Source of the DNA: Sporosarcina ureae
Lineage (GTDB): Bacteria; Bacillota; Bacilli; Bacillales_A; Planococcaceae
Length of the DNA: 64,000 bases
Assembly (NCBI RefSeq): GCF_002082015.1
Contig: NZ_CP015109.1
Location: forward strand, 994,001 to 1,058,000
Reading direction: 5' to 3'
Below, piece by piece: positions 30,319 through 59,200 of the stretch (position 1 is its first letter; each line of letters opens with the position of its first letter). The translations under genes and the position numbers were made by a program. The notes beneath the pieces are model-generated. The model made no database searches and was not told where the DNA came from. It saw only the letters and a list, made by a program, of their open reading frames with translations.

Positions 30319-31080
30319 TCATTGAAGGAACGGCGCCATTAATATTTTTCCTGTTCCGCGGTAGACATTTACCAATCCTTCGGCTGAAGCCGCCGAACCC
30401 ATAAGTGTTTTTCCAGAGCGTTCGACAGTAAATTCTAAACCGCCTGACCAAGCAATCGCCATATTCCCATCGATTTTCAACTCATCATTTTCTAACTCGA
30501 TTTCGATAAGTTCCTCTCTCGCTACGGAAGATTCCAGTGCAACCGCTCCTTGCCCGGCAAGTCCCAGATTAAAAAGACCCTCCCCGCCCATTGCAGCAGA
30601 AGAAAGATTTGAGCGCATCACGGCCTTATGTTTTAATCCTGAATCACAAGCTAAAAATAGTCCATCTTCAATGACGAGTGACCGATCCCACTCGTCAACG
30701 TCCAGTAGCAAAATATGCTTGTACGTTGGTTCCAAAACAAGTGTACCGGTTCCCGTGTACTCTGGTTTGATGCTCGATTCTTTAGTCATTTTACCCCGAA
30801 TCGTTTTTCCGATGAAGTCTCCTACTCCCTTAAGCCCAGTCGTCGCTTTCACATCTCCCGCCATCCAATGCATGGCCCCTGCCTGAATCGTAATGTTCGA
30901 CTGACTGACATCGCAAACTAGCTGTCTTCTTCTTACTTTCATTTCAGAAGCATAATATGCCGATTGTGCCGTCGCATGACCGATACTTAATTCTCTTTGG
31001 AACTCTACTACTTTAAAAGGGCCTAGTTCCTCCCTAACTTTTACATTCTCATTATCTTCAAAGTTTTTAATCGTAAACAG
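30319..31080 (-). CDS. AIM24-family protein, copy 2
   Basis: 253 residues from CTG 31080, the same codon as in copy 1. The first ATG (30942) would remove the conserved FTIKNFEDNENVKVREELGP start, so it is internal. An in-frame TAG 27 bases upstream of the CTG leaves no other good start; AGAAAGCGGGCGAT precedes it. By eye the first 250 bp of the two copies are about 95% identical, and the products differ at only a few positions (e.g. IP to VA near ALESS). The pair forms 760-bp direct repeats that could recombine and delete the 28353 gene. Confidence 0.8.
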   Translation of the reverse strand: MFTIKNFEDNENVKVREELGPFKVVEFQRELSIGHATAQSAYYASEMKVRRRQLVCDVSQSNITIQAGAMHWMAGDVKATTGLKGVGDFIGKTIRGKMTKESSIKPEYTGTGTLVLEPTYKHILLLDVDEWDRSLVIEDGLFLACDSGLKHKAVMRSNLSSAAMGGEGLFNLGLAGQGAVALESSVAREELIEIELENDELKIDGNMAIAWSGGLEFTVERSGKTLMGSAASAEGLVNVYRGTGKILMAPFLQ

Positions 31081-39782: not shown

Positions 39783-39850
39783 GGTACCAGGGTTGCACAT
39801 ATCTCTAGTTCAGTTCAGAATTATTTCCGATTTGTGTTGGAACCTTGCAG
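39783..39850. repeat. Palindromic repeat family 1 copy
   Basis: GGTACCAGGGTTGCACATAT, inner CTAGTTCAGTTCAGAATTAT, and TTTGTGTTGGAACCTTGCAG; degenerate arms. Confidence 0.65.
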
Positions 39851-39857: not shown

Positions 39858-39925
39858 AAAAGTATCTGTGTGAGATGCATTCATGATTGTTTAAACAATC
39901 ATGGTTGTTGCTCACGCAGGTTCCC
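39858..39925. repeat. Palindromic repeat family 2 copy
   Basis: AAAGTATCTGTGTGAGATGC, inner TTCATGATTGTTTAAACAAT, and TTGCTCACGCAGGTTCCCT. Eight bases from a family 1 copy. Confidence 0.7.
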
Positions 39926-39996: not shown

Positions 39997-40199
39997 TATG
40001 AAAATGCACCACCTCGATACACTGATTGTATCGAGGTGGTGCTACGTTTTTATAATTGGACATTCACGGCACTTATTTGAAAGTAGTAGATGTGAGATCT
40101 AACACCAGATGTTGTTGGCTGCAAGTAGCCGTATTTTTCTCTTCGGTTTCTGTTTTCAGACACCCGAATTGTTTGGGATTTGTGTGAGGACCTGGTACC
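39997..40199. repeat. Long intergenic repeat family 3, copy B
   Basis: Related to 13574-13788. It begins with a perfect 16-bp hairpin, arm GCACCACCTCGATACA, and ends in the half family 1 palindrome TGTGTGAGGACCTGGTACCT. Between are matching blocks such as GTATTTTTCTCTTCGGTTTC. The interval 39775-40256 consists of repeats only. Confidence 0.7.
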
Positions 40200-40256: not shown

Positions 40257-40634
40257 CTAAATAATCCATTTTGCAGTTCTTGAAATTGGTAATCTACGTT
40301 GTCCATCCAAACTTGCTCCAAGTCTAGAGATTTCAGATTCAGATGATAAAGTAAACATACCAGAATCACTATTTCCTAACTTTCTCAATTCAGATAGCTG
40401 GAAATCGTCTAGTATTAACTCATATATATCTGCGATTAATATTTGCTGACATTGAAAATGCTCATCAAATTTAATTTCTTCTTTAATTCTCTTAATGAAT
40501 CTATATCTCAAATATGGAAAACCATCTTTATCTACTAATCCTGAAGAAAGTATCTCTTCATTAAATTCTCTATCTGCGGAAACCTCTCTCCCCTTTCCAT
40601 CCTCAAACCAATTCAAAAAATCTAATAATTTCCC
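40257..40634 (-). pseudogene. 3' half of the RT-associated TM/Nudix-like gene, cut off by IS110
   Basis: 125 codons plus stop, in frame with the 5' half at 42407-42826 once the insertion element is removed. It encodes GKLLDFLNWFEDGKGREVSA, DREFNEEI (a Nudix-box-like R-E-x-x-E-E), then GFPYLRYRFIKRI and an acidic/Leu-rich domain end (LIADIYELILDDFQLSELRK). This matches the SMODS-associated Nudix-like (S-NUDIX) domains known from conflict systems. The ATG at 40706 belongs to the element and not to the gene. Probably not translated. Confidence 0.72.
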
Positions 40635-40637
40635 TCC

Positions 40638-41012
40638 CTCTATAAATATTGATGTATCAACGGTTTGACCCGTTGTTAGGGCGCCAAAAATATATTTTTG
40701 ACACACTTGTTACCGTTTTGAATTTAATATGTGAATCTTCTAACAGCCTTTGGTACGCTACGCGGTCATCGCTGGATAATACTGGTTGCGATGCTAATAC
40801 AATATACGATGCACTCTGGATCTCCGCATAGCTTATGATGACGTACCCTCCCATGTCTCTTGGCGTCTAATGCGCCTACATTCCTTCGTTCGGTCTAGTC
40901 ATAAGGCGGAGGCTGGCGAAGCTCCTTTAGGGACTCATTGGTCGTATGGAAAATATCATGCCGGCTACTCCGTGTCATCCAATTTTCTAGTCATTCACTC
41001 AGAATGTCGTGC
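40638..41012 (-). other. Non-coding end of the IS110 element, candidate bridge-RNA region
   Basis: Follows the transposase stop on the minus strand. It holds several small hairpins (GGCGCATTAGACGCC; AACGGGTCAAACCGTT) and a direct repeat ATGACTAGA. IS110-family recombinases use a structured bridge RNA from a non-coding end to choose target and donor; the longer non-coding end here is 3' of the transposase, as in the IS1111 group. The assignment is inference. The 115-base 5' end also folds (GGTATTT...ATACC around GGGGTCAA/TTGACACCCC) and is the alternative. Confidence 0.4.
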
Positions 41013-42290
41013 TTAGGCAGCTCTATCGAGCTTAGGAATGTCCTTCATCATTTGCTCAGCGTCAAACGCTATGTGTTTCGTACAGATTGCGTGTAGTACC
41101 TTCAGTAGTTTTCCGCAGAGAACCACAATGGACTGTTTCTTGCGTAATGGATTCACTTGTCTGGTTGTGTAATACTCGTGCAGTTGTTTAAATGCCTTGT
41201 TATGCCGCACCATTGGCATCATGACACGGAAGAGCAGTGCACGCAGCTGGCTTCTTCCTCTTTTAGAAATTCGTTTCTGTCCCTTGTGCTGTCCGGAAGA
41301 ATTCTCCCTCAACGTCAATCCCGCAAGTTTCAATAATTGGCGTGGATGATCGTAATGGGAGAAACTGCCGATTTCTGATAGTAAATCAATGATGGTTGCG
41401 TCTCCAAGTCCTGGGACTGTTTGGAGATACTCGTACTCAACTGTAGCTTGAATAAACGCTGTCAGCTGTTCTTGAAGCGATGCCAGTTCCTTCTCAAGTT
41501 GGCGATAACGTTGAACAAGTGTGGCAATTTCAATACGGGCCATCTGTTGTCCTTCTGTTACGCCTATAGAAGTACGTGCATTTTCAATGAGCTTTTTTGT
41601 CTTCGGCAACTGGGGAGATTTCATCCCCTCTACCGTCCGGTAGGTTGCCAGTAGTTCTGACGGTTCCTGATTCACTATCTCAGATGGGAATGGAGTACAT
41701 TCCAAAACGGCTAGCGCCATTTTACCAAACGCTGGAAATATTCCTTGGAACTCGGGAAAGTACCGATCAGTCCAGCGAATCATCTTGTTTTTTATCGCGT
41801 TCAATTCTTCAGTAAGATTACCTTTCAAAGTCGAACCAACCCGTAGTTCTGCCTCTGTCTCCCTTAAAATTCTAGGGTAGCTGTAACGTCCATCTTTCAC
41901 CAAACGGGCGATGACGAGGGCATCTTTTGCATCGTTCTTTGTTTGAAGATTGTCGTCCAGCTCCTTGGACTTCTTTACATGCATGGGGTTGCATACGACG
42001 AGGGGGATGCCCCGATCATCGAGAAAGTAAGCCAGGTTGAGCCAATAGTGGCCGGTAGGTTCAATACCTATGATGACATCACTTTTACCAAATTGTTTCT
42101 TAGCGTTTAGAATACACTCATAGAAGTATTCGAACCCATGGCTTGATTGATGAACAGGGAACGATTTCTTAAGAATCAGGCCACGTTCATCGACCATGCA
42201 GGCGTAATGTGTGCGCTTGGCGATATCCATTCCGATAACTAGCGTCTGATCCGTGACTTGATTAATCTTTGCATTTTGCGTAAAATTCAT
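41013..42290 (-). CDS. IS110-family DEDD transposase
   Basis: 425 residues. The N-terminal RuvC-like DEDD domain has Asp in IGMDIAKRTHYA, Glu in IGIEPTGHYWLNL, and the Asp pair in KNDAKDALVIARL. After a coiled-coil stretch (RYRQLEKELASLQEQLTAF) the C-terminal transposase_20 domain shows VPGLGDATIIDLLSEIGSF, LAGLTLRENSSGQHKGQKRI and SKRGRSQLRALLF with the catalytic-Ser region. The frame is intact, so the element may be active. ATG 42290 follows AAGGAGGACTCATC. Confidence 0.93.
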   Translation of the reverse strand: MNFTQNAKINQVTDQTLVIGMDIAKRTHYACMVDERGLILKKSFPVHQSSHGFEYFYECILNAKKQFGKSDVIIGIEPTGHYWLNLAYFLDDRGIPLVVCNPMHVKKSKELDDNLQTKNDAKDALVIARLVKDGRYSYPRILRETEAELRVGSTLKGNLTEELNAIKNKMIRWTDRYFPEFQGIFPAFGKMALAVLECTPFPSEIVNQEPSELLATYRTVEGMKSPQLPKTKKLIENARTSIGVTEGQQMARIEIATLVQRYRQLEKELASLQEQLTAFIQATVEYEYLQTVPGLGDATIIDLLSEIGSFSHYDHPRQLLKLAGLTLRENSSGQHKGQKRISKRGRSQLRALLFRVMMPMVRHNKAFKQLHEYYTTRQVNPLRKKQSIVVLCGKLLKVLHAICTKHIAFDAEQMMKDIPKLDRAA

Positions 42291-42406
42291 GATGAGTCCT
42301 CCTTGGTATTTAAATTAGGGGTCAATTCGTGCTGATTTGACACCCCGCATCATACCAAGAGGGCTCTTTGTGTTCAAGTCCCCGAAAAAGCTTCTAACAG
42401 GAATGC

Positions 42407-42826
42407 TCCTTTTATCCTTATCCTTAAATCATTTTTTTTAGCATCATCTTCTGGAATTTTCACATCTTCCTTTACATCTAATTCATTAAATATGTAATCA
42501 GAATCCTCATACCTCTTATATACCCCACCAACTGGTTGAAATTGTTGGATTCTATTGCCTTTTACAAGTAAATACTTTCCATCTATTTTAATTCTAAATA
42601 AATAGGAGATCGATACTCTTATTTCTTCATTTCTATATTTCACTTTGGACTTATAGATTAACTTAATAAATTTATAGTTATTAGACAAATATAAAATTAA
42701 ATTCATCATCATAGAAGCTACTATGCCACAAGCAATAGCAATTATATTAGGACTAACACCTTCCACATAAAATATTAATGACATGCAGATTATAAAAGTT
42801 ATAGAGAAAAAAACAACTTTTTTCAT
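42407..42826 (-). pseudogene. 5' half of the RT-associated two-TM/Nudix-like gene
   Basis: 140 host codons, then the frame enters the IS110 element and stops at 42374 after AFLLEAFSGT. The ATG overlaps the RT gene stop (ATGA), so both are translated from one message. Two membrane helices (about 4-22 and 27-49), then a soluble part with FRIKIDGKYLLVKGN and QFQPVGGVYKRY, the start of a Nudix-like fold. The Nudix-box half lies beyond the element. The intact protein would be about 265 residues: a membrane-anchored, possibly nucleotide-sensing or -degrading effector. Confidence 0.72.
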
Positions 42827-44586
42827 AAGATAACCTTTCCTCTCTTTCTCCTTTTCTCATTAAGGTATTTGATGAAACTTATGTCATTCACTTCACTGTA
42901 TTTTTCATCTAAAATGCTTTTTCCAGTACCTAGGCAGTAATAGTGTAGAAAGAAAATTACATATCTTCTTTCAATACTATTAGGGACATACTCTATAGAA
43001 TTTATTTTCGTTAACAAAAATTTAAATGAAGAGTCAAACTTCCTTCTGATGAAATCTATATTTTCTATAAAATAACTAATACAGATACACCTAGCAAACC
43101 AGTTAAAGTTATCTTTTTTATTACTACTAAGAAATCTATTTATGAGGTATTCAGAAATTACTTTTTTGTATTCTTTTCTCTTTACCTTACTTAATACTTT
43201 TAATAAAAAGCATTCAAATTGTGGATAGATATTAGCTTTGCTATTAAGGAAGGACAATGCATCTGAAATTAAATCAGGGTTTTTTTCCAGTAATTGTTTA
43301 ACAAAATTAATTTGTGCAGTTTCAACATTTTCCACAATTGAAGGGTTTTCCAATATTGTTTTAAAAAATTTCTTTGCACCTTTACTTCCAAATCTGTATG
43401 CCCCCTTTGAACTAATTACTTTAAACGTATACCGTATTATCGAAAGCCATCTCCCTCCTCTGTTATTCGAATTCACTATAATAGAAAAATAAAAACTCTT
43501 TAAAAATTCCACATCCTTTTTTCTTTTATTCAATTTATCCCATTCATTAAAATACCAGTGATCTTTAAACATAGCTTTTGTAAAGATCTTTGTCTTCTTT
43601 TCATTAACATGTAACTTTAACTTACCTAAAAGTAGAGAAGAATTTTGTATAACTTCATATGCATCATATTCATCACCATTAAAACATATCCACATATCAT
43701 CAGAGTATCTTGTGTATAGAAAATCATTATTTCCTTTAAATTTCACTCTCAAGAATTTGAGAATTTCAGTGTCATATTTAGCTAAATAAAAGTTTGCTAA
43801 TAATCTGGACATTTCACCTATTTCTTCTTGTGGAATGCCTGTATTTGAAGGGTAATAGCCAATGTCTTTACTATCGGAGGAACGTAAAAAGTGAAATAAT
43901 AAATCAATTATATTGGAATTATCTTTCACAACACTTCTTAGGTCTCTTTCTAGTATGCTTAAATTTACGTCGTCATAAAAATGTGCTATATCAATATGTA
44001 TGTATTTATTATAATTTGCACTCCCAGCTTCTCTTGCTAGTCTCTGATATTCACTCCAATCTTTTCTAAAATTAGCTTTTGAAATCTTTGGTTGATATTC
44101 GTCAGGTATACTATTGATTTTAGTTATATACTCCTTGTATTTTTTTGTGAGATTTTCAAAATCTATTGAATTTATTTTTGATGGCTCTATCATATCTTTC
44201 ATATACAAAGTCTCTATAAAATCCTTCTTACTTTCTTCATTGCTTTTGGGAGTAATTCGATAACCTCCATAAACCTTTTCATTCTCGGTAATTTTAGATG
44301 AAAGATCGGCCTGTATCTTCTTTATACAGTAGTAATATACAACTAAATCTTCTAGCGAAAAGGATTTAGTCTTTCTTAATACTCCATTACCTTTCGCAAA
44401 ATAACGATAAAATGAGGATTGAACAGAATAATCATGGTTATTAATCTTTTGAAGTAGACTTTTTAAAAATTTTTCTTTATCGATATCCTCATAACCTAAT
44501 ATGTCATAATACTCTATTTCTCGTCTAATTACTTTCCAAAAATGGTCATCAATTGAATTAATAAACTCTTTTTCATTTATATTCAC
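42823..44586 (-). CDS. Reverse transcriptase of defence (UG/Abi-like) type
   Basis: 587 residues; GTG 44586 follows GAGGAGTGTAGAAT. RT motifs: motif A HIDIAHFYDD (catalytic Asp199), motif B GIPQEEIGEMSRLLANFYL (250-268) and the YSDD catalytic box (294-297), followed by LHVNEKKTKIF. The length, an extra 190-residue N-terminal part and a 250-residue helical C-terminal part fit the UG/Abi group of chromosomally encoded defence RTs rather than group II introns, retrons (about 320 residues) or DGRs. No intron RNA, msr/msd or template repeat is seen. It is translationally coupled to the TM/Nudix-like gene. The region is about 30% GC, lower than the BREX genes, suggesting separate acquisition. Exact UG class not determined. 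Confidence 0.82.
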   Translation of the reverse strand: MNINEKEFINSIDDHFWKVIRREIEYYDILGYEDIDKEKFLKSLLQKINNHDYSVQSSFYRYFAKGNGVLRKTKSFSLEDLVVYYYCIKKIQADLSSKITENEKVYGGYRITPKSNEESKKDFIETLYMKDMIEPSKINSIDFENLTKKYKEYITKINSIPDEYQPKISKANFRKDWSEYQRLAREAGSANYNKYIHIDIAHFYDDVNLSILERDLRSVVKDNSNIIDLLFHFLRSSDSKDIGYYPSNTGIPQEEIGEMSRLLANFYLAKYDTEILKFLRVKFKGNNDFLYTRYSDDMWICFNGDEYDAYEVIQNSSLLLGKLKLHVNEKKTKIFTKAMFKDHWYFNEWDKLNKRKKDVEFLKSFYFSIIVNSNNRGGRWLSIIRYTFKVISSKGAYRFGSKGAKKFFKTILENPSIVENVETAQINFVKQLLEKNPDLISDALSFLNSKANIYPQFECFLLKVLSKVKRKEYKKVISEYLINRFLSSNKKDNFNWFARCICISYFIENIDFIRRKFDSSFKFLLTKINSIEYVPNSIERRYVIFFLHYYCLGTGKSILDEKYSEVNDISFIKYLNEKRRKRGKVIL

Positions 44587-44632: not shown

Positions 44633-44702
44633 GGTACCAGGTCCTCACACAACTCTAGTTCAATTCGGAATTGTTTCCAAATTGCGTGTGTACCTGGTAC
44701 CT
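44633..44702. repeat. Palindromic repeat family 1 copy interrupting a gene
   Basis: GGTACCAGGTCCTCACACAA, inner CTAGTTCAATTCGGAATTGT, and GCGTGTGTACCTGGTACC. It forms the 3' end of the Shedu-like frame at 44655-45077 and is the last copy before the BREX cluster. Confidence 0.82.
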
Positions 44703-45077
44703 GTTTTTAAATGCATCATGATGCCCAAATGAATAAAAACCTTTCATAATAGATGCAATAATAAAATATGCTTTTTCTTCACGAATCCAGTTTAGTATTG
44801 ATCTTTCATTTGAAGCTGGATTTACAATTATTTGGTGGAACTCTTCTGTTGAAGTCGTTAGTTGTTCAATTTGTTGTAAATCTACAATATCCAGGTGATT
44901 GTTGGGGTACAAACTTATAAAGTGCCTTACGGCTACTGGATACTCCCTGTAACGCCCTTTTCTAATAGCCAAGTCGCCTTTTCCAATTCTACGAACAATC
45001 TCTTTTTCATTTAAAACTTCCCATTCATCTATTTCTTCTTGTGTAAGTGTAGTATAATCCCTTGAATATATTTTCAT
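44655..45077 (-). pseudogene. N-terminal stub of a Shedu-like (DUF4263) gene truncated by a repeat
   Basis: 140 codons from ATG 45077 (GGAG eight bases upstream). The host part ends near SFGHHDAF; the last 15 or so residues (RYQVHTQFGNNSELN) are translated family 1 repeat, which supplies the stop. The segment NERSILNWIREEKAYFIIAS plus FYSFGHHDAF matches the region just before the nuclease domain in many DUF4263/Shedu (SduA) proteins, where FGHHDAY is normally followed by a FPEF-type strand and the catalytic core. Here the nuclease is missing. Loss of the rest by repeat insertion or repeat-mediated deletion is inferred. Confidence 0.6.
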
Positions 45078-45175: not shown

Positions 45176-47233
45176 TCAACTTACCCCCAAAGCCTTAAAC
45201 ACCGCATCAATCGGATCGGCATAAAACACGGGTTGCACTTTAACCAGCAAATCAGGTGGAACTGTCTGTAAGTCCATCACTGATGACGCTGGTATCAATA
45301 CCTTTTTAGCCCCTGCATCGACACATACTTGAAGCACATTCGCAAACTCTTCCACTTTGGCAATGGTTCCTCCGACAGTCATGTTTCCAATAACAACTGT
45401 GCTCTCTTGTACAGGCTTGTCCAAAGCACTTGAACATAATCCAATCAACTCAGCAATAGCCAGTTCATCTGTCAGCCCGATGCCTTGAAGATCACTGATA
45501 TGCATGAGGTAATCTTTTGTTTTCGTGCTAATGACATTACTGATACTTTTGCTGTTAGCTGTGAAGTAACGGAATGCCGTATCCAAGCTTTCTCTTGCTT
45601 CACGATAAGAGCCAACACCAGACTTGTCAAACTTCCCTGTCCCGCTCACAACTTGGTTTTCGAGCTTGTACACGCCTATCATACCTGAGTTTCCATGACC
45701 GACGACATAGACATGTCCTGGCTTGCCCATGCCTTCTGGAATGAGCTTACCGCCACCTTGTTCGGGAACGGATACATACTCCTCTTCCAACGATTCCTTA
45801 TCTATATAGGAGAACATGACATCGTAAAACTCCATACCACCAATCTTCTTAAGCTGTTCTTTTACACGACGGCGACCTTCCATTGCATACTGAACGATTT
45901 CTTCAATATCTTCTTTCGTGTATTCACCGTGTGGATAAATGAGTTTCACCATACCTGAAACCGTCTTGCGAACTGCTACCGTATCACGTTGATTTAAGTT
46001 GTTGCCAAGCTTGTAATACTTATCAATGGAATCGGCAAAGGAACGTTTACGCATTTCCCTAAAGAACTCGGCGATGTAATCCACGATAAATCCATACTTA
46101 TCCGTAAAGAAGTCAGGTCTCATTTTCGGAATTTCCCAACCTGGCATGTAGTAATGCATCCGATCAAAGAATGCCGTATCACTTGCCATTTCTTCTGGGA
46201 AAGGGGCAAACAGGTGTGATGTCTTCAGTAGTACATCCACACTCTGATTGATATTACCAACGAACACCATAGAGGCAGATGCATTTTTCTCTTCTTTTCC
46301 TCTTGCAAAGGATCCTGATGCCATGTAGTCCTTCATTATTTGGATTCCGTCTTTATCCTTAAAGCGAATCCCCGCCACTTCATCGAATGCTACGCAATCC
46401 CACATCCCAACAAGCCCAATTTTTCGTGTAGACATGTTATAGAAAAGGTTTGCTACAGTGGATTGACCACCCGATACTAAGATGGAGTTGGGTGAAATTT
46501 CTTTATACACATGCGATTTACCTGTCCCACGGGGTCCAAGTTCACACATGTTATAGTTGTTTTCGACAAGTGGAACGAGTCGTAACAAAAGATGCCACTT
46601 CACCCGTTCCTCCAGTTGGGTCGGCTCCATTCCAGTCGAACGAATCAACACATCAATCCATTCATCCTTCGTAAATTGCCTTCGTCCTTCAAACACTTCA
46701 TTGATGTCCATATTCGGCATTTGAATCGGCTGTAAACTGCTCACGCTAAAGGGATTCATAACCCGTACTTCTTCATCATAAAAGTAATCAATTTTCACCA
46801 TACACCAAATGCCACCAACAAGAAGCTTGTCGAACTCTTTCACAAAGTTTGAAGCAATTGGAACACCTTTCAGCCCAAGATTCGAAAACTCTGCTTCATA
46901 TGTGTCGATTTTCGGGTTTAGTGCCACGGTTACTTTATCAATAATCGAATACTGCCCTAATTCACGAATGCGTGATTTAATCTTTTCCGCTTCGTCAGGA
47001 CGGACAAAGTTGTCGGTAAGGATCTTTTTAACACGCTCAACGCCTTCTTGTATGCTTTCTTCATCATCCGTGGCCGCATACATACCAAGCAGGTATTCAA
47101 GCACATAAACAGGAACGTTGGCCCCTTCTTTAATAAGCTTCGTCAAGTCCTTTCGAACGACACGACCAGCAAACACATCATTTAGCTTTTTATCAAGATC
47201 CAGCGTCATCGTTTCTTCCACTTTCTCTTCCAC
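45176..47233 (-). CDS. brxL: BREX protein BrxL (Lon-like AAA+ ATPase)
   Basis: 685 residues; GTG 47233 follows GAGGGGGTG. The N-terminal BrxL domain (DLDKKLNDVFAGRVVRKDLT), AAA+ core with Walker A GPRGTGKS (CELGPRGTGKSHVYKE), Walker B-like WDCVAFDEVAGI, and the C-terminal Lon-protease-like domain (QESTVVIGNMTVGGTIAKVE) that lacks the classic Ser-Lys dyad context. BrxL is the last gene of type 1 BREX and is needed for phage restriction; it forms DNA-encircling oligomers. It starts 16 bases after pglZ in the same operon. Confidence 0.93.
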   Translation of the reverse strand: MEEKVEETMTLDLDKKLNDVFAGRVVRKDLTKLIKEGANVPVYVLEYLLGMYAATDDEESIQEGVERVKKILTDNFVRPDEAEKIKSRIRELGQYSIIDKVTVALNPKIDTYEAEFSNLGLKGVPIASNFVKEFDKLLVGGIWCMVKIDYFYDEEVRVMNPFSVSSLQPIQMPNMDINEVFEGRRQFTKDEWIDVLIRSTGMEPTQLEERVKWHLLLRLVPLVENNYNMCELGPRGTGKSHVYKEISPNSILVSGGQSTVANLFYNMSTRKIGLVGMWDCVAFDEVAGIRFKDKDGIQIMKDYMASGSFARGKEEKNASASMVFVGNINQSVDVLLKTSHLFAPFPEEMASDTAFFDRMHYYMPGWEIPKMRPDFFTDKYGFIVDYIAEFFREMRKRSFADSIDKYYKLGNNLNQRDTVAVRKTVSGMVKLIYPHGEYTKEDIEEIVQYAMEGRRRVKEQLKKIGGMEFYDVMFSYIDKESLEEEYVSVPEQGGGKLIPEGMGKPGHVYVVGHGNSGMIGVYKLENQVVSGTGKFDKSGVGSYREARESLDTAFRYFTANSKSISNVISTKTKDYLMHISDLQGIGLTDELAIAELIGLCSSALDKPVQESTVVIGNMTVGGTIAKVEEFANVLQVCVDAGAKKVLIPASSVMDLQTVPPDLLVKVQPVFYADPIDAVFKALGVS

Positions 47234-47249: not shown

Positions 47250-49808
47250 TTAAAAATCAAAATCACTCACAATTCCCAAGTTGATGGAAAACGGTACTTT
47301 TTCTGTGAAGACACCTGTTTCCATATCTTTTACAAGTAAGTAATACGTTTTATTGCGATCATACGAAATGCTTTTCAATACAAATTGTAGCTTGAATGTT
47401 CGCTCGGCTGGATTATCAAATGAACGATCCCCGATGATGGTTTCCTCATTAGACAGCACATTTCCTTCATCGTCTGCCATGTAAATGACGACTGTACGAG
47501 GAATTATCTTGTCCTCAACTTTTTCGGTTTGGAAGAAATCCAAGTTGAAAATGCTGTTCGTGATTTTTCGTGTCGTGCTTGTCAGCCTGATATCGACCTT
47601 TTGAATAGCTTGCGAACCTTTTTGTCCCGCCCGCTTATTTTTGAAGGCAACTAACGGAACAACGACTTCTTGGAGGCTTGCCCCGCCGTGCACAAAGTTC
47701 ACACCAGTTCCTTGCATACGATTACGAATGGTTCCGTTCGGCACATACGCTGTCAAATGATGTTCGTTCTTCACAATCGAAGTTAAATCAATCGCCAATT
47801 GCCCTGAAACATCTCTATTCTCTTTCGAGAGCATGTAACGACGCTTCACTTCAATCGTATCCATTGCCTCATTCCCGATCTTGTCACTCTCTTCTAAAGC
47901 ATCCCGTTGATACAAGAAGCCATGATCAGCAGTGATATAGACATTCGTTCCGCTCAAATCATCCCGAATGATTTTCACCAAATCATACAACTGATTCAAT
48001 GCCGTTTCCACCGCATCGAACGTGTAGATTTCTGTGGAAGCTTTATCGCCCATCGCATCAATCGTGTCATGATAGATATAAACAAGCTTCTTCCCTTTAA
48101 ACGTTTCACGTCTGCCTGCCTTATTCATCGCCAGCATATCTTGGTAGTGAACGGCGATACTATCTTCTTTGAACGATTCAATGATTTTCTTACGATTTTC
48201 AAGCCCAGCCGAGTCTTTTCCATCGACAAGAACTCGACCGTTTTCGTCAAAATCAAGACTACGATGCGGAAGCAATGAAGCCATCCCCAGTTTCGTAACA
48301 GATGGCACAACTCCAAGCATCGTCTGCATGTCACAAACGCCCATCGTCTCAGAGTTCAAACGTTCAGCAAGTTCAACACCCACCTCATACCGCATCGCAT
48401 CCGAAATGATGACAAACACTCGCTCACCTTTTCGAATATGTGGAGCGACGATGGATGAATAGAATCCTTGCTGATTTTGCACTCCAGGAAGTGACCATTC
48501 CTCTGTCATTTCCGACTTCACTGCCTGTGACCAATGAGTGCTTAACTCTCCCATAAACCAATTCGTATATAGATGTTCCACAAGTTCTTTGAGCTTTTTC
48601 AATAATTCATGGTTACTTTCTTCATCATACGCAACGTAAAACTTACGGTAGTATGTATCCATGACGTGATATTCTTTACGATACGCTTCGTACAGGTCGA
48701 TTGCCCGCCCTTGGGGAATACCTTGCCCGTGTTCTTTATGGAATTCATGCATCTTCACTGTGTAATAAAGTGCCTCGTAAACAGACGCATATTTTTCGTA
48801 ATAATGCTTCGCCCGTCTCAACTTAATCAGCTTCGTGTATTCTTCATAATCTTCCAGCTTCTCCATTAGGCTATTCGCAATATGAATGATGATGGCTTTA
48901 TCAACATACGGGAATGTATCCGCCTGCCTGAACTCGTCTATCGGGACAGATTGCAGTATACTTGGAAGCTGAATTTCCTGTTCAACCATTTCAGCATATT
49001 CATCAAATACTGTATAATCCGTTTTGTGATGCATCCAATGGTCGATGAACACCAATGCATTCGCTTTGTTTCGTTCGGCAATAAAATCTTGCACTGCCGT
49101 CAAATAATCTTCGCTCACCGAATGATTGAACGCCGTCACCGTTAAATGAATAAACAGCGTCTTCAACGTCTTCGTTTCACGCTCGTACCCATAATGAGTC
49201 GCCACATATGTCCAGAACACATCAATATCAAAGAATCGCTCCATTAGTGACAAATACTTGTTGCCGTTATCATCCAGCGTATCCATTAGAACCGTTTTTA
49301 ACACCGCTTCAAAGTCAGGTGTCTTCACGTTGCAAAGAACACCCATGATCGCCAACTCAATCGTTTCCTCTGTATAAGATTCGATGCCAAATGCCTTGAA
49401 TTTTCGGAACCGTTCTCTATTATTAAAGAATCGTTCATGCTTTTTAACGGTCGCCCTGAGCGATGGGTCAATATGAAGCTCACTCAAAAGAAGGGACACC
49501 CGATCCGCAAAAAACGTCTTCGAATACAACACCGTATCCGCCAGCCAGTTATCCTCTACACCTAACTCCACATTCGTATAGATTAAATAAGAAGAAGTCG
49601 GATCTTCTTCCTCTAATAAATGCTTCATGTAGAATTGGTTATTATCAGATAATGTTTGGACTTTAACACCAGCAATCATCAATTGCTCAATTTCTTCAAT
49701 AAATTCTTCGTCCTTGTCCACCCAGAACACAATCTTTCGTTGTTCCCCGTCTTTTAGGGGTTCGTTGAAAATATCTTGCAGGGCGGACTCGATTTGTGTC
49801 ATGTTCAT
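47250..49808 (-). CDS. pglZ: BREX phosphatase-domain protein PglZ
   Basis: About 852 residues. The frame opens at GTG 49817; the ATG at 49808 lies better behind TAGGTG. The long N-terminal half is helical; the C-terminal half is an alkaline-phosphatase-superfamily domain with VFVIISDAMRYEVGVELAER (metal/nucleophile region), KKLVYIYHDTIDAMGDK and VYITADHGFLYQRD. A core BREX-1 component required for both methylation and defence. The upstream gene ends about 125 bases away, and this gap separates pglZ from the two-gene insert. Confidence 0.93.
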   Translation of the reverse strand: MNMTQIESALQDIFNEPLKDGEQRKIVFWVDKDEEFIEEIEQLMIAGVKVQTLSDNNQFYMKHLLEEEDPTSSYLIYTNVELGVEDNWLADTVLYSKTFFADRVSLLLSELHIDPSLRATVKKHERFFNNRERFRKFKAFGIESYTEETIELAIMGVLCNVKTPDFEAVLKTVLMDTLDDNGNKYLSLMERFFDIDVFWTYVATHYGYERETKTLKTLFIHLTVTAFNHSVSEDYLTAVQDFIAERNKANALVFIDHWMHHKTDYTVFDEYAEMVEQEIQLPSILQSVPIDEFRQADTFPYVDKAIIIHIANSLMEKLEDYEEYTKLIKLRRAKHYYEKYASVYEALYYTVKMHEFHKEHGQGIPQGRAIDLYEAYRKEYHVMDTYYRKFYVAYDEESNHELLKKLKELVEHLYTNWFMGELSTHWSQAVKSEMTEEWSLPGVQNQQGFYSSIVAPHIRKGERVFVIISDAMRYEVGVELAERLNSETMGVCDMQTMLGVVPSVTKLGMASLLPHRSLDFDENGRVLVDGKDSAGLENRKKIIESFKEDSIAVHYQDMLAMNKAGRRETFKGKKLVYIYHDTIDAMGDKASTEIYTFDAVETALNQLYDLVKIIRDDLSGTNVYITADHGFLYQRDALEESDKIGNEAMDTIEVKRRYMLSKENRDVSGQLAIDLTSIVKNEHHLTAYVPNGTIRNRMQGTGVNFVHGGASLQEVVVPLVAFKNKRAGQKGSQAIQKVDIRLTSTTRKITNSIFNLDFFQTEKVEDKIIPRTVVIYMADDEGNVLSNEETIIGDRSFDNPAERTFKLQFVLKSISYDRNKTYYLLVKDMETGVFTEKVPFSINLGIVSDFDF

Positions 49809-49933
49809 TGCATTCACCTACTCTCTATAACTTTTTTAAAAAAGATACACCAAAGTTAATAGGTTTAATCTTTAAATGTTCCTGTACCTATGCCACACTT
49901 TTCAAATCATCCTAACAAGGATTTTATAAATAT

Positions 49934-51028
49934 CTAATTGATTTCGATTATATTGCGTAGCTCTTCATGTATCATTTTCCCTATCTTCTCTACTTCGCCA
50001 TCAAGAACGGTGATATTACTCATTGATAACCTTTCACTTATCCTTTTTAAAAGTTGTCCTTCTTTAACTTTTTCATATAAATCATTGAAGTTATACTTGA
50101 TTAATTTCTCCAAAGAAATCGTATTATACATAATAAATATAATGATAGTCTTTTCTACCATTATTCTAATTTTCTCGTCCTCGACAAAAGTATCTTTAAG
50201 CAATAGAAAGTATCTGAAGGTTATGTCATTTCTAATGTATGGAGTAAAGCCAGATGATACAGATGTTAGTAATATATCTAAAGCTTGTGTAACAAACGAA
50301 TATGTCGCAAATTGAAAAACTCGGATGTTAGATAAGTTAGCCAATTGCGGATATTGACTTCTATATTTTTCACATCTTTCTTCCAAATTAAGCTTCGAGT
50401 CCATTATGTCCGTGAAAACTAAATTGTCTAATACATAGTCATCGAGTCCATTCTCAATATCGGATAACGATGAGTAATTTGCAAGAAACTCCGAACCACT
50501 TTTCAAATCCGTATTTAGAATACTTGAAACGAACTTCCAATAAAACGTGTCAAATAACTCTAATTTGGAATTATTTTGGTTATATAAATCTTTAACTGGA
50601 AGGATGTGTATTGAAGTTGGATAATCCCTTGCAATTTTAAAAGTATCGTAATATGCTTCTTTAAATAAATTCAATGTGTAACTGTCCTTAAAGGTGTCAT
50701 TAGAGTTTCTAAAAAAACCTTCAAATTTTATCAATGGTTCTTCAACCACATGATAGTCCCCAATAAGAACAAAGGGATAATGTTCAAAATTCTCCACGTC
50801 CAAATACATTGCACCTGACAGCAATAAGCATTCTCTGGATGAACTCCATCTTTCTATTTCGAATTCAATCAGATTTAAACGTTTAAGCCAAAAAAGTTTC
50901 ACTTCATCAATTAATTTTAGGGCGGTTGAAAAGCCAAATGAAGGTTCCCCTATTACAGTTTGTAATTCCGCCAATAGATTTCTATATTCTACTTGGATAT
51001 TATTTAGAACATCGTTATTAAACTCCAT
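49934..51028 (-). CDS. Unknown protein, second gene of the BREX insert
   Basis: 364 residues; ATG 51028 lies within the last codons of the upstream gene (11-base overlap, GAGG 10 bases before), so translation is coupled. It is soluble, helical, with no signal or TM. Recognisable but unassigned segments: LIEFEIERWSSSRECLLLSG, HYPFVLIGDYHVVEEPL and VRFQFATYSFVTQALDILLT-like helices. No nuclease, ATPase or methylase motif. Not a canonical BREX gene. AT-rich relative to pglX and pglZ. Probably works with its overlapping partner, as an added defence, anti-phage effector or BREX modulator. Confidence 0.6.
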   Translation of the reverse strand: MEFNNDVLNNIQVEYRNLLAELQTVIGEPSFGFSTALKLIDEVKLFWLKRLNLIEFEIERWSSSRECLLLSGAMYLDVENFEHYPFVLIGDYHVVEEPLIKFEGFFRNSNDTFKDSYTLNLFKEAYYDTFKIARDYPTSIHILPVKDLYNQNNSKLELFDTFYWKFVSSILNTDLKSGSEFLANYSSLSDIENGLDDYVLDNLVFTDIMDSKLNLEERCEKYRSQYPQLANLSNIRVFQFATYSFVTQALDILLTSVSSGFTPYIRNDITFRYFLLLKDTFVEDEKIRIMVEKTIIIFIMYNTISLEKLIKYNFNDLYEKVKEGQLLKRISERLSMSNITVLDGEVEKIGKMIHEELRNIIEIN

Positions 51029-52484
51029 ATTGGATATCCTCGTATTTTAACTTATACCATTTTGGGAATTCATAAATTCCCGATAATAGCTGGATATATC
51101 TTTTCAGGATTTTGACAATATCAGAAATAACGCTTGGTAATTTTTGATGAAGATGAATGTCAGGAACTGTATGATACTTATGCAAAGGATTATTACATAC
51201 CAACATTGAACTCTCCCTTACAGCTCCCCAAAAACCATGTGAAAAATTTGTGCCATATTCGTAATAGATTTCATATAACTCCGACTCATCAACTTCCTCA
51301 AATTTCTTTTTTATTGATTGTTGATCAAAATAACGGACATCGATGTCCATAAACTCTTCCCAAATAGGTTCATTTACGATAGCTTCTATAATTGGTTCTT
51401 GTATTTGAGATTCTCTACTAAAGCCACTTTCACGTCCTCGGAGCAAAATATGTTTGTATTTTCCAATACCATATAATTGATATTCCTTAAATATATTTAT
51501 ATTTCCCGTTTCTTTCATAATTAGATATTTCATCATAACAAAGACCTCTGTTATTGTTCTTAGTGCATGTCGACCTAATATAGCGTTTTCTAATTCATTA
51601 TCCAATGTTTCTTTACATAATTTAAGTATATAAACAGCAGACCCCATTAACACGTTGAACTTGGGGCTTTCAAGTAACTTTTCCTTGTAGACCAAGTTAA
51701 TATATTCAAATGCTTTTTGTGTGTCTTGAAGAAATTCACCCGAATCTAATTGATTCTTCATGTGTTTAATAAAAAATGGTGAACATTCAGTGCTTAATCC
51801 AAGTTCATTCCAGAAAGAAGATACAAAATCGTGGTTTGGTTCCTCTATGTCAATTCCCTCGAAACTTCTAATCATAGGTCTGTAAAGCCTCATTATTTCA
51901 TCTTCATGAGATGTTGAACTATAGTTTTTAAATGCATCTATTGTCATACTAACTTCCTCTAAAAACTTGACTTTTCCTCTAAAAAGCGAAAGGCAAATAG
52001 ATAAATATCTTAAGTCTGTTGAATCATTGGATTGTTGGTCAAAAAATCGTTCAACAGTTTCCTGTAATTTTTCAATTCTATATTCGACAGTTTGAGATTC
52101 ATCATAAAAGTATTCATTAATTACTTTGTTTTTATTTCGACGATATACAATAGTTAAAGGGGCTAATATTGTAGGGTCTACAATGTCACTGATAATGTCG
52201 AAAATTTTTTTTTGTTTATCCCCTGGTAAGCCATTTATCAATGAAAACTTCGGTTCATTAATATCAATATCTGTATGAGCAATTCGATATAGTATATTTT
52301 CGCATTTATTTAATCCCTCTTCTCTTCCGTAATAGAGAAGGATTAGTCCTAATCATACAAAATCTGGAAGTCGTTCTTTGCTCCATGAATTGAACTTTAA
52401 CAAATCTCCAAATGCATCATTGGCTGGGGAAATAATAACCCCTTTTTTAAACGAATGGTCTGATAACTTACTTGTATTTCGCAT
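51018..52484 (-). pseudogene. DUF5677-like gene with one in-frame TGA (codon 44)
   Basis: A full frame of about 488 codons from ATG 52484 (AAGGAGGGAATTTTAATA upstream) to 51018, broken only by TGA at 52353-52355. Before it: MRNTSKLSDHSFKKGVIISP and WSKERLPDFV; after it, in the same frame, LGLILLYYGREEGLNKCENI, continuing into the long frame (INGLPGDKQKKIFDIISDIV). In related DUF5677-type proteins I recall a Trp at about this place (RLPE-x-LWLGLI), so TGG to TGA is likely. Later features are HALRTITEVFVMMKYLIMKE and YYEYGTNFSHGFWGAVRESS, typical of DUF5677. It may be a nonsense mutant, be read through, or be restarted at TTG 52241. Confidence 0.65.
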
Positions 52485-52613: not shown

Positions 52614-55600
52614 TTATATTTTTGCCACTAACCCCTTAAACTTTTCATAATTGACTTTCACACCGTCATCCAAGTCAATCTCAATTTGCATATCCGCCAT
52701 ATGGTGTAACAGCTCATCATACGCTTTCAACTCGTCGATTTTCTTATCGAGGGATTTCAGTTCCTTTTTGGCATTGCTGATTTCTTTCGTTGTGGAATCT
52801 CCTTCGATGATATCAAGCAAGTCCTTCTTCTCCGCATCCAAGCGAATTTGAACTTCATGCAAATAATCCGTCCGAATACGGGATAGCGTCGTTTTGTCGT
52901 AACGGTGCATATAAATAAGACAATTGAACGCCTTTTCCTTACCTGATGTAAACAGCCAGTATATCGGTCGCTTCTTATACACTTGAACATGATCTTTATA
53001 AAAGTCGTTCAAGAAGTAACGACGCAATGCTTCCCTCGCTGTCTCATTTTTACGTCGACCAATCGCATCCGCTACGAATTCGAGATTTTCTTCCAGTGTT
53101 TCTTCACTAAACGTTACTCGAACGAACTCAACGAATCTTGTTACGATATCATCTTCGAAATAAGCACCTGGCAGGATTGGAAGGATGTTGTCTTCGTCTA
53201 CGGAAAATGTTTTATATCTGGAAGAATCGAATTCTCCGCCTGCATAGATAAGCCCTTCTTCATCAAGCGAATAACGACCGAAAGAACAGCCGATTGCATA
53301 GGAAATGAAGCTTGTAATGTCACGTTCTAAATCGGCTTTGCGGATGGTGATATTATTAACGTCAACTTTTGAAGATAGTTCATCTTGCAAATTATAAAGC
53401 TGAATATATATTTTATTGAGCTCTTCTTCATAAATCGTCATTTGATTAAACTGCTCTTCCATAAATTCTTGCCACAACCCAAAAGCTATTTTAAGTTGCG
53501 TTAAAGTATTTTCATCCTTCATTAAAGGGTGCTTTTTGAACCCCCAGGAGAACTCATATGAATCCCATTCATCTTTCGAGATTTGTATTAAACTTTCAAC
53601 CTTAATATTAATTGATTCAATGATTTCTTTATCTGAAAGTATTATCGGAATTTTAGCAACTGATTCCGCTTGAATTGCGATTGTTGGATTAATTATTCTT
53701 ACGAAGTGGTTAGCAATTTTACTACACAAAAATCCAATAAAATAAGAATGAAATTTCTCTTCTGCGAAAAGAACTGAACCATTGGAATCAAAAATAAAAC
53801 CTTCTGGCAAGTATCGCACTCCGAAATATGAACTACTAATTCTGGACCAAGTTATTCCCCTTTGAAAATAATGTTTCTCATTTGTTATTTTCCAATTTAA
53901 ATTATCACCCAATTGGGGGTATACTCGTCTTGTATTTTCTTTTATTTCATGCCCATCATTTTCCCAATTTACAACATAATCATTATTTCCATACCACTTT
54001 CTGAATTCTCCACCTTTACAATACGGAATCCATTTTACTTTTTGTTTAAATGCATCTTTCGCAGACTTCATAGAAATACCCATTTTATCAAATTCTATTT
54101 CATGCCATAATCTAAGAAAGCGATTATTATCACCCGTCCTCATTCCAAAACAAATTTTAGAGTAATTATCCAAACTTTTATTATTTGAAAAAACTTCATT
54201 TACATTTCCACTTGCCCAATACGCAATCGGGCTTCCTGGAATTTTACTGAAGTTTTCTTGACTGAATGAGTAACGATGCGGAGCAGAGGGATTAAGAACT
54301 GCATCTACCGCTTTTTCTCGTTTCTCTTCAGCTGTTCTTTCTTCGATCATTCGCAAATAAATTCCTTTGCTATCGGACACTTCAACACTTCTTAATACAA
54401 ACGCCGTTGATTGCACAACTTCGCCACCAATTTCCTCAAATGCTCTCGGTCCCAAGTGCAACATTGTATCGATGAATTTATTGTTAATGACCTTTTCACG
54501 CAACTTTTCAAAGCTGGATAGGAACATCCATGAATGCTGATTAATGGCCGCATAGAAACCGTTTTTCTTTAAGTAATGATCCACTTCCATGAAGGAGGCG
54601 AATAAGTCGGATTTTGAATCGGGATAGTTCTTTTTGAGAAAATCAGACAGTTCTTTGTTCATACTTCCCGAACCCATGTAAGGTGGATTCATGACGACGA
54701 TGTCATATTGTTGACCCATGATTTTCGATTGTTGAATAAGTAATGGAAGTAAAGCCAATGTTTTCTCCCGCATCTCTGTTTGAAAAATATCATCTACAGG
54801 ATTGTCTTTTATCTCACGAAGCCTATTCTCTAAATATACTGTATCTATTGCCGTCGCTTTAATAAGTGAACCGTATGTTTTGGCATTTTTAAATGTATCA
54901 ATTAGGATTTTTGTCACATCGAATACTGTATCGTTATCATTGCCTGCAACATACAAAATGTCTTCTTCTGTCCATCCGTTCGTTTCTTGCACAGATGCCA
55001 AATTGAGTGTTAGTCCATCTCTTTCGATACTTCTTAAGAAACGTCTATTGTATTGCAATGCTTTCATAACAACTGAAAAGCTTGCCAATTGATACGCTCG
55101 ATCGTCAATGTCTAATCCATATAAATTTTTTTCAATAATTAGGCGTGGAATTTCTCTTTCCATATAACCGCATTTGCTATAAATCTCGTAAAGAACATCG
55201 AACATATAGACAAGGATATGGCCGCTTCCCATTGCAGGATCAAAGCACTTAATGTCCTCTACATCTAATTCTTTATTGACATATGGGATAATTTTTTCTT
55301 GAGATTCTTCTTGTTCGTGATTTAAGAAAAACTCCCATCCTTCGATTAAATCATTATGCTCTGGATGGGCTTCTGTCCAGTAACGTCCAAGCGAGTTTTG
55401 CACCATATATTGAACAATCCAGTCTGGTGTAAAAAGCTGAGTTGCAAAAGGGATTTCTTCCGCCTTATATTTCTTTTTCGCTTTGAAAACACGGTCTTTT
55501 TCTTCGGCAATATAGTATTGATACAACCACCCGATTACCTCGATTTTCTCCCAGTTAGCTTCTGGTATAACTTCCGTATCCGTCATTTGACGTACAAACG

Positions 55601-56156
55601 AATCCGTCCCAAGTAACCCTTCAGGGAAAAGAATCTCTGAATAATCCTCAATCGTCTCAAACATAAAGGGCATATAACGATTCAAGTCATTACAATGCGT
55701 TTTGATTAGATATTTGAAAAGCTCGTCTGTTTCATTGTTCATTTTCATGTCGTAAACTTTTTCTTTATCTAAGTCAAGATCCAGTGATAATGCTTCTTTC
55801 ATCATATCTGGCTCGGCACTACCTGAATTCGAAGAAAGGACACGCACTTTTGTTGGAAGATAATCGTTTACTTCCATGTATCTCAAAGCGATAAAACGGT
55901 TGAACCAAGTGTAGGATGTTTCTTCCATTAATCGGTCAAAGCCGATTTCATTAATACGGGCGATAAGCTTATTCCGTTGTCGTCTTTCTGTATCTGAAAG
56001 CTGTTTGCCGTCAATAAAGACAGCATCTGAGCTTTCAACGTTAGCTTTTTGAATTGACTCGGCTGTAATACCAATTTTTCTTGCTTGAAGTTCTACTTTT
56101 TCCAGCAACTCTCTTCTTGCTTCAGTTGCAAACTTCTTTAATGCGGTTTTGTTCAA
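52614..56156 (-). CDS. pglX: BREX adenine methyltransferase PglX, second copy
   Basis: 1180 residues; TTG 56156 follows AGAGGTGAAATAG. A class I N6-adenine methyltransferase: SAM site FDPAMGSGHILVYMFDVLYE, catalytic NPPY at 490-493 (VVMNPPYMGSGSMN), and a variable middle that includes the target recognition part (about 500-900, e.g. WIPYCKGGEFRKWYGNN). The N-terminal 390 and C-terminal 270 residues are nearly identical to the copy upstream; the middle is clearly different. BREX PglX modifies a non-palindromic host motif for self-recognition and is needed for defence. Two specificities would imply two modified motifs. It follows the first copy by 84 bases. Confidence 0.92.
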   Translation of the reverse strand: MNKTALKKFATEARRELLEKVELQARKIGITAESIQKANVESSDAVFIDGKQLSDTERRQRNKLIARINEIGFDRLMEETSYTWFNRFIALRYMEVNDYLPTKVRVLSSNSGSAEPDMMKEALSLDLDLDKEKVYDMKMNNETDELFKYLIKTHCNDLNRYMPFMFETIEDYSEILFPEGLLGTDSFVRQMTDTEVIPEANWEKIEVIGWLYQYYIAEEKDRVFKAKKKYKAEEIPFATQLFTPDWIVQYMVQNSLGRYWTEAHPEHNDLIEGWEFFLNHEQEESQEKIIPYVNKELDVEDIKCFDPAMGSGHILVYMFDVLYEIYSKCGYMEREIPRLIIEKNLYGLDIDDRAYQLASFSVVMKALQYNRRFLRSIERDGLTLNLASVQETNGWTEEDILYVAGNDNDTVFDVTKILIDTFKNAKTYGSLIKATAIDTVYLENRLREIKDNPVDDIFQTEMREKTLALLPLLIQQSKIMGQQYDIVVMNPPYMGSGSMNKELSDFLKKNYPDSKSDLFASFMEVDHYLKKNGFYAAINQHSWMFLSSFEKLREKVINNKFIDTMLHLGPRAFEEIGGEVVQSTAFVLRSVEVSDSKGIYLRMIEERTAEEKREKAVDAVLNPSAPHRYSFSQENFSKIPGSPIAYWASGNVNEVFSNNKSLDNYSKICFGMRTGDNNRFLRLWHEIEFDKMGISMKSAKDAFKQKVKWIPYCKGGEFRKWYGNNDYVVNWENDGHEIKENTRRVYPQLGDNLNWKITNEKHYFQRGITWSRISSSYFGVRYLPEGFIFDSNGSVLFAEEKFHSYFIGFLCSKIANHFVRIINPTIAIQAESVAKIPIILSDKEIIESINIKVESLIQISKDEWDSYEFSWGFKKHPLMKDENTLTQLKIAFGLWQEFMEEQFNQMTIYEEELNKIYIQLYNLQDELSSKVDVNNITIRKADLERDITSFISYAIGCSFGRYSLDEEGLIYAGGEFDSSRYKTFSVDEDNILPILPGAYFEDDIVTRFVEFVRVTFSEETLEENLEFVADAIGRRKNETAREALRRYFLNDFYKDHVQVYKKRPIYWLFTSGKEKAFNCLIYMHRYDKTTLSRIRTDYLHEVQIRLDAEKKDLLDIIEGDSTTKEISNAKKELKSLDKKIDELKAYDELLHHMADMQIEIDLDDGVKVNYEKFKGLVAKI

Positions 56157-56240
56157 AACTATTTCACCTCTATTTGATATGATGCTTTGTCTTAGAATCC
56201 AAGTACCTTTCTAAGTAGAAGTATCGGAAAACGTTTTTTA

Positions 56241-59200
56241 CTAAATCTTTGCCACTAACCCTTTAAACTTCTCATAATTCACTTTCACACCGTCATCCAA
56301 GTCAATCTCAATCTGCATATCCGCCATATGGTGTAACAACTCGTCATATGCCTTCAATTCGTCGATTTTCCTATCAAGAGACTTTAGCTCTCTTTTTGCA
56401 TTGTTGATTTCTCTTGTTGTGGAATCTCCATTAATGATTTCAAGTAAATCATTTTTCTCAGCATCCAAGCGGGTCTGAACCTCGTGTAAATAATCTGTTC
56501 GAATACGAGATAGCGTTGTTTTATCATATCTATGCATATAAATAAGGCAATTGAACGCCTTCTCTCTACCTGAAGTAAATAGCCAATAAATCGGTCTTTT
56601 CTTATAAACTTGGAGATGATCCTTATAGAAATCATTCAAGAAATATCGACGTAGGACTTCTCTCGATGTTTCATTTTTTCTTCGTCCAATTGCATCCGCA
56701 ACAAAGTCAAGATTTTCTTCAAGTGTTTCCTCACTAAATGTTATTCTGACGAAATCAATGAACCTTGTTACGATGTCATCTTCAAAATAGGCACCTGGCA
56801 GAATTGGAAGGATGTTGTCCTCGTCTGCTGGGAATGTTTGATAACGGGAAAAATCAAAGCCACCACCTGCATAAATCAGACTATCTTCGTCGAGTGAATA
56901 GCGGCCGAAGGAACAGCCTATTGCATAGGAAATAAAGCTTTTAATATCTTGTTCTAAATCGGCTTTGCGGATGGTTATATCTTTATCCTCCACTTTAGGC
57001 TCAAGTTCATCTTGTAAACCATAGATTTCAATAAAAATACGATTTAGCTCTTCTTCATTCAACTTTAGCTGATTGAACTCCTCCTCCATAAATATCTTCC
57101 ATTTCTTGAACGTAGATTCTATCGAAGTTTCTCTTTTATACATAATTAGAGGATGTTTTTGAAAATCCCAGGAAGTCTCTATTGAATCCCATTCTTTTTT
57201 ACTAATTAAGTAATTTTCATTCGTTAACTCGTCAATTATTGACATAGTTTCTATATTAGTTTTTACAACAGGGAATTTTGCAACTTCACCAGATTGAAAA
57301 TTTAATGTAGGATTTATTTCGCCTAAAACATATTTAAAAACTGAAGAGTTTAATAAAGATAAAAAATAATTTCTTTCGTTCTCGTCTGTATATAAACAAC
57401 AACCACCATTATCAAAGATAAACCCTTCTCCAAATTTTCTAATACTAAAATTAGAGGAAGTAATGGTAGACCATGTTAAGCCAGGCTTCATAAAATAATT
57501 ATAATTGGCTATAACAGCTGTCGGTATTTTCCTAATTTCCTCGGCGTCATTTTTCCAATCAATTAAGTATTCATTATTTCCGTACCACTTTCTATAACCC
57601 CCGCCTTTATTATAGGGGAACCATCTATTAATTTTAGTTTCTTCTTTAACAATTTTGGTCTTATTAAAGTTCACTGTATTTATGTCTACTTCATGCCATA
57701 ACCTTAAAAATAAATTATTATTTGAAGTTGAATTTCCTTTGCGGGGGGATGCAATTTCTCCAAGTTTTATTGAGTTCTCAAATAGTGTTCTTACCTTATC
57801 ACTCACCCAATACGCAATAGGGCTTCCTGATATTTTGCTAAATTGATTTTGTTTACAGGAATAGCGATATGAAACAGAAGGATTTTGAACAGCTTCCAAT
57901 GTTTTTATTGGCTGATTTTCTATACCAGTAAAATCCGATAGCTTTATGAACTCTCCTGACACATCTACATGATAGTTTCGTAAAGTAAACAAACACACTG
58001 GTACCATGGCCGCTTCAAAGCCGTTATATTCCAATTGAATCAATGAGCTAATATTTTTTTCTTTAACGATTATATTTCGTATATGTTCATAAGAAGAAAT
58101 AAACATCCAAACGAACGGAGTAATAAAACCTAATTGACCGTTCGGCTTTGTAGACCGAAAGCTATATTCCATAAATGCGGAATAAAGGTCGGATTTAACA
58201 TTTGGATAATTCGCATTTAAATACGTTGTAACTTCTTTCGACAAATATCTATTACCTGCATATGGTGGATTAGTAATAAAAACATCATACTTTTGATCCA
58301 TGAGAGATGATTGCTTGATTAAACATCTAAATAACTCCAAAGTACGATCTTTCATTTCTAATTCGAACAAGTTACCCACTTGTTGTTCGATTGCAGTTAA
58401 ACGTTCATGCAGAAAAGAAGTATCGTAGGATTCAAGTTTAAGAAGTGAACCAATTGCTTTCGCATGTTTAAATTGTTCAATATAATTTTGCATTTCATCA
58501 AACTTTTCACCAGTATGTTCCCCAGCTAAAAAGGCCACTTCCTCATCCGTCAATTTATTTGTTTCTTGAATAGATGCTAAATTCAGCACTAAGCCTTCTC
58601 GTTCAATACTCCGCATAAATCGCTTGTTATATTGCATTGCTTTCATTACGACTGAAAAGCTTGCCAATTGGTACGCACGATCATCTATGTCTAAACCATA
58701 GAGGTTCTTCTCAATAATAAGACGTGGAATTTCTCGCTCAGTGTATCCACATTGACTATAGATTTCATGGAGAACGTCAAACATGTACACCAAAATATGC
58801 CCACTTCCCATGGCAGGGTCGAAACACTTGATATCTTCAACATTAAGTTCTTTATTAACATATGGAGCTAATTTCTCTTCAAAATCTACTTCGGGATTTG
58901 GATTTTCTAAATAGAACTCCCAATTTTCTATCAAACCTCGATGCTCAGAGTGTGACTCAACCCAATAACGTCCCAAAGCATTTTGCACCATATAACGAAC
59001 AATCCATTCAGGTGTGAACAATTGAGTTGCAAATGGGATTTCTTCGTTTTTATATTTCTTTTTTGCCAAAATAACTCGGTCTTTTTCTTCAGCAATATAA
59101 TATTGATAAAGCCACCCAATAATCTCAACCTTTGTCCAATTATCTTCTGGAATGACTTCCGTATCCGTCATTTGCCGAACGAAAGAATCCGTTCCAAGCA

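Follow-up and report, generated by a model that had tools for sequence, protein, structure and literature searches.

What brings an open reading frame that begins as a Shedu nuclease gene to its end inside a small palindromic repeat, between a BREX operon and a reverse transcriptase (RT)? The window analysed here is a 64,000-nucleotide stretch of Sporosarcina ureae DNA (NZ_CP015109.1, positions 994,001 to 1,058,000), and positions are those of the window unless the genome is named. We propose, at a probability of roughly 78% for the explanation as a whole, that the frame is a pseudogene derived from the one-gene Shedu nuclease, sduA, and produced by a rearrangement at a palindrome of family 1 that fused it to an RT-NUDIX unit. 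The argument begins with these features:

44655 to 45077, minus strand: sduA stub, 140 aa, ATG start and TAG stop; the SduA N-terminal region occupies residues 1-123, and flank and palindrome encode the remainder
44633 to 44701, no strand assigned: family 1 palindrome, 69 bp, with nhmmer matches on both strands
44702 to 44711, no strand assigned: junction, placed by DNA alignment with the brxL-sduA locus of another genome, G221

A sequence-only reading of this locus had described the frame as keeping the segment that precedes the DUF4263 nuclease and then running into a repeat that supplies its last residues and stop codon, and this description is borne out. The frame has the coordinates, strand and length claimed for it, and contains both motifs named, NWIREEKAYFIIAS and FYSFGHHDAF. 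Residues 1-123 match positions 1-121 of 268 in the PADLOC profile PDLC00386 SduA at E 1.2e-39, a strong Shedu N-terminal similarity that places the stub in the SduA family. The C-terminal nuclease domain of that family (SduA_C, formerly DUF4263, with a PD-(D/E)xK fold) is missing: a Pfam search of the stub gave nothing above cut-off and no SduA_C match. Since SduA_C (PF14082) spans residues 109-261 of the intact G221 protein, most of the nuclease domain has been lost from the stub, whose anti-phage activity would for that reason be expected to be absent; Shedu activity has presumably been lost. A short protein may still be made, and the start codon and an upstream GGAG-like motif (read by eye) are intact. 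The palindrome encodes the last 14 residues as well as the stop, the TAG at 44655-44657 lying in its core GAACTAGAG.

Intact relatives show what the gene once was. Searching this genome and 300 relatives at E 1e-10 or better found SduA in six of the 301, namely the stub and five complete genes of 265-274 aa, none of which ends naturally where the stub does. The full-length gene needed to place the junction was found in G221, from the same family but another genus, where it lies 77 bp downstream of brxL. Its product is 69% identical to the stub over 121 aligned residues, the pglZ genes of the two loci are 76% identical, and the brxL-sduA spacer can still be aligned between them. Two distant SduA proteins are carried on plasmids (38% and 33% identity), and a search for the closest strains, with the stub against a collection of genome contigs from which records close to the window may be missing, found no relative. 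A PDB sequence search returned de novo TIM barrels and other weak matches, which we judged to be chance and which offered no usable structure.

The stub stands between two defence loci:

47250 to 49817, minus strand: pglZ of the BREX operon (PglZ models)
45176 to 47233, minus strand: brxL (BrxL models), directly upstream of the stub across a 98 bp gap, 95% identical to G221 brxL
42823 to 44586, minus strand: UG13b reverse transcriptase (PADLOC RT_UG13b, E 6.8e-122), on the other side of the palindrome
42374 to 42826, minus strand: 5' part of an RT-associated 2TM/NUDIX gene (PADLOC RTasNUDIX, E 1.5e-45, profile 2-116 of 234)
41013 to 42290, minus strand: IS110-family transposase splitting the NUDIX gene (Pfam DEDD_Tnp_IS110 and Transposase_20)
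40257 to 40706, minus strand: 3' part of the NUDIX gene (Pfam Sa_NUDIX, profile 66-199 of 199)
40157 to 40199 (genome 1034157-1034199), no strand assigned: partial family 1 palindrome, just beyond the RT-NUDIX unit
39862 to 39921 (genome 1033862), no strand assigned: second-family palindrome, 60 bp, adjoining the degenerate family 1 copy below
39783 to 39849 (genome 1033783-1033849), no strand assigned: degenerate family 1 palindrome, after a conserved LysR-like gene, at the left edge of the BREX/RT block

The idea that a third defence gene was lost beside BREX and the RT needs amendment: sduA is indeed broken, but it is a member of the BREX operon, as in the brxL-sduA arrangement of G221, and not a separate neighbour. 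Nearer BrxL relatives, in G116 and G022 (90-97% identical), have other genes after brxL, and the slot behind brxL is therefore variable. No open PMC paper on a brxL-sduA operon was found, judging by title or abstract start. The UG13b RT-NUDIX defence unit (40257-42826) is probably dead as well, because the IS110 element splits its NUDIX partner gene. Elsewhere in the BREX operon, PADLOC DitA and DitB matches lie at 49934-52241, between the pglX-like genes and pglZ, in a slot that holds a HEPN-like gene in G221; at the pglX position, two large adjacent genes (1180 and 1166 aa, 52614-59741) both match a single G116 gene at 57-58%.

Comparison with G221 places the break almost to the base. The DNA alignment ends directly after ATGCATTTA, at about 44708; the palindrome core, starting at 44701, is 7 bp further on. 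That the repeat itself cuts the gene thus stands as far as the palindrome at the end of the frame is concerned, but not to the letter, since roughly 7 bp of A-rich flank separate the sduA homology from the core. The observation is more than chance: the palindrome region folds as a DNA strand with z -4.62 against 200 shuffles, the best other copies of the palindrome share 89-94% identity with it, and the E value of the SduA match is 1.2e-39. The 3' half of sduA is absent from the whole genome, where a single SduA place exists (profile 1-121); no SduA sequence lies beyond the palindrome, and the 46 bp from there to the RT start are not SduA. Insertion of a palindrome alone is therefore insufficient, and a deletion or exchange is needed. 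The earlier suggestion that these palindromes move into or recombine within genes accordingly fares well for recombination or deletion at a palindrome and poorly for moving in alone.

We propose that sduA was once the last gene of the BREX operon, following brxL, and that a rearrangement with its junction at the family 1 palindrome deleted whatever followed codon 123, and with it nearly all of the nuclease domain. The same rearrangement would have joined the stub to the UG13b RT-NUDIX unit, with the palindrome giving the stop codon. The neighbouring copies (39783, 40157 and 44633 in the window, 1058880 in the genome) point the same way, and the event was probably a recombination or deletion in which palindromes acted as direct repeats, as opposed to a simple insertion. 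Past the palindrome, the homology of the junction copy to other family copies extends no further than roughly 15-40 bp in the best-matching rows, and its donor could therefore not be named; nor did any sduA from before the deletion, with a palindrome in it, turn up to show which step came first. A one-ended or illegitimate join beside an existing palindrome would result in the same junction.

It is also conceivable, though we consider it unlikely, that a mobile palindrome of the REP/REPIN kind, moved by a Y1 transposase, simply inserted into sduA and that the 3' half was later lost in an unrelated event. The genome does hold one Y1/RAYT transposase, a Y1_Tnp frame at genome 2618189-2618794, flanked as RAYT genes are by family members at 2618118-2618200 and, inverted, at 2618952-2619000. 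Relatives of this transposase occur in 41 of 101 genomes (E 1e-10), and one genome, G042, has palindrome copies of the stub's zone and no relative of the transposase. In G029 (2577072-2577670), about 12 tandem repeat units spaced at 50 bp stand next to the Y1 transposase gene. Insertion into genes would also fit the observation that, for 19 of 123 palindrome copies, the stop of an ORF of 90 aa or more lies inside the copy or no more than 5 bp away, one or more residues being repeat-encoded in seven of the 19. In favour of our main explanation, a second gene of the stub's zone (genome 990201-991262) takes its last seven residues from the repeat, whereas the orthologue in G001 stops short of the palindrome copy there and has another C-terminus. 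ORF ends in palindromes are thus seen more than once, and the stub is the most extreme of them. Against simple insertion stands the absence of any sduA sequence beyond the palindrome or elsewhere. In G001 (C21:24970-25275), a 101-aa fragment that by eye resembles a group II intron RT ends inside a palindrome with a tail similar to that of the stub.

The palindromes themselves are confined to two zones, both in this genome and in G029. Zone 1, at 981-1059 kb of the genome, holds the stub, and zone 2, at 2549-2619 kb, ends with the Y1 transposase. A whole-genome BLAST with the palindrome gave 38 rows, in which both strands of one place are counted. Every one of the 30 at or below E 0.27 falls at 982-1059 kb or 2554-2614 kb; five rows lie outside both zones, none of them better than E 0.94. 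Searching the zones by profile gave 16 merged copies from 981,299 to 1,058,946 and 17 from 2,548,919 to 2,619,000, the elements of the second zone being shorter and different in core. All 48 rows at E 0.5 or lower in G029 lie within 1020-1076 kb or 2495-2578 kb; the other complete genomes searched (G047, G044 and G054) have few, scattered matches. A second palindrome family, of about 64 bp, has 11 merged copies over part of zone 1 and a few elsewhere in the genome; its places are 39862-39921 of the window and ten others at 1005-1034 kb of the genome, and in a whole-genome BLAST the best row of each zone-1 copy is on the plus strand.

Gene order is disturbed where these palindromes lie. We compared 137 ORFs in and around zone 1 with the genomes G029 and G055. 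Of the 76 ORFs outside the zone, 51 and 53 respectively have an orthologue, all in the expected order; of the 61 inside it, 20 and 17 have one, with 5 and 4 out of order. Orientation is nevertheless kept in 112 of 112 zone orthologue comparisons over six genomes, comparisons that are not independent and in which a majority decided the frame of each draft contig. The palindromes, too, mostly point one way (78 against 12, with 25 undecided, leaving out the two more distant genomes G027 and G047). Among 24 gaps in this genome that could be judged, order is broken in at least one other genome at six of the seven with a family 1 palindrome and at four of the 17 without (p 0.009), and adding the second family gives p = 0.002 over all gaps. 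When gaps shorter than 100 bp are left out, the figures are 7 of 8 against 3 of 9 for both families (p 0.05, two-sided) and p 0.13 for family 1 alone; the link between gene-order breaks and palindromes is suggestive, not proven. Pairs of copies across genomes (83 copies in all, each of at least 35 bits) have only the left-hand neighbour in common in 55 cases and only the right-hand one in 16. Zone 2 is likewise changed in order relative to G029, with no inversion among matches of 75% identity or more; two weak matches (27-39%), one in the opposite direction, are uncounted. The scrambled zone also contains an AIM24-family gene (27368-28270) with a shorter near-copy of it not far away (30319-30942). 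Where exact pattern searches matched genomes with names, these were all Sporosarcina. A comparison of S. ureae strains describes strong synteny and one large IS-bounded inversion, in passages that mention neither zones nor palindromes (PMC5930826). No open PMC paper describing palindrome-bounded shuffling was found, judging by title or abstract start.

Both the shuffling and the stub junction could be due to a site-specific system of the integron kind that works on the palindromes, and the shared direction of the palindromes, the orientation kept by genes that are out of order and the closer tie of palindromes to their left-hand gene all speak for it. We regard this as quite improbable, as neither zone holds a tyrosine recombinase, the orthologue comparisons are not independent, and direct-repeat recombination, or tandem duplication followed by random loss, predicts the same orientation rule. 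Weakest, and very improbable, is the idea that the stub is a functional short protein whose N-terminal SduA domain serves as a regulator or inhibitor: its frame is open and well started, and its differences from G221 fall mostly at third codon positions (26, 19 and 51 at the first, second and third over 121 codons), but no other short SduA occurs in the 301 genomes, the C-terminal residues are repeat-derived, and the codon pattern mainly reflects the time before truncation.

Recombination between direct repeats, as we propose for the stub, is an ordinary explanation of the shuffling zone that may well suffice, though the zone may be more than a known kind. More speculatively, and with considerable doubt, one can picture both zones of the S. 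ureae group as sites of palindrome-bounded module exchange, possibly through RAYT-type single-strand events on folded palindromes. Modules would enter, leave and change places but keep their orientation because the palindromes mostly share one direction; BREX and RT-NUDIX would be two of the defence modules carried, and an exchange in the wrong place would have cut sduA. Alone, the stub is one more broken defence gene and ordinary. It does, however, place a family 1 palindrome, almost to the base and by comparison with an intact gene, where a rearrangement that destroyed a gene was joined. Because the family marks zones of variable gene content and order between sister species, the stub is a tangible case from which to ask whether REP-like repeats are just bystanders where the chromosome varies or the joints at which defence modules are exchanged.

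Among known systems, the stub is closest to Shedu (SduA; Pfam PF14082 SduA_C) in its N-terminal half, which is clearly SduA and whose intact orthologue in G221 occupies the same place in the operon; it differs in ending with repeat-encoded residues in place of the nuclease half. Chromosomal integrons have palindromic sites of about 60-70 bp between genes, exchange modules without inversion and are unstable in content. Zone 1 resembles them in its palindromes between genes, its lack of inversion and its unstable content over about 78 kb, but its modules comprise several genes in both directions and it has no integrase; with no Phage_integrase match in either zone and the genome's three tyrosine recombinases at 2269, 3091 and 3230 kb, we rejected its assignment as an integron. 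There is also a likeness to REP/REPIN elements with their RAYT (TnpA-REP): family 1 is a short multicopy palindrome found mostly outside genes (69 bp at full length) and often near gene 3' ends, with one Y1 transposase between inverted members. At the hairpin foot, judged by eye only, the alignment ends in GGTACC and GTAG was not seen. Passages on Marinomonas describe REPs concentrated close to their transposase (PMC8266576), and others on T. roseum describe REPs gathered in blocks at few loci, and also REPs lying within genes (PMC3733652). Here, unlike in REP/REPIN systems, the zone with the stub lies 1.5 Mb from the transposase, the copies point mostly in one direction, and the zone coincides with scrambled gene order.
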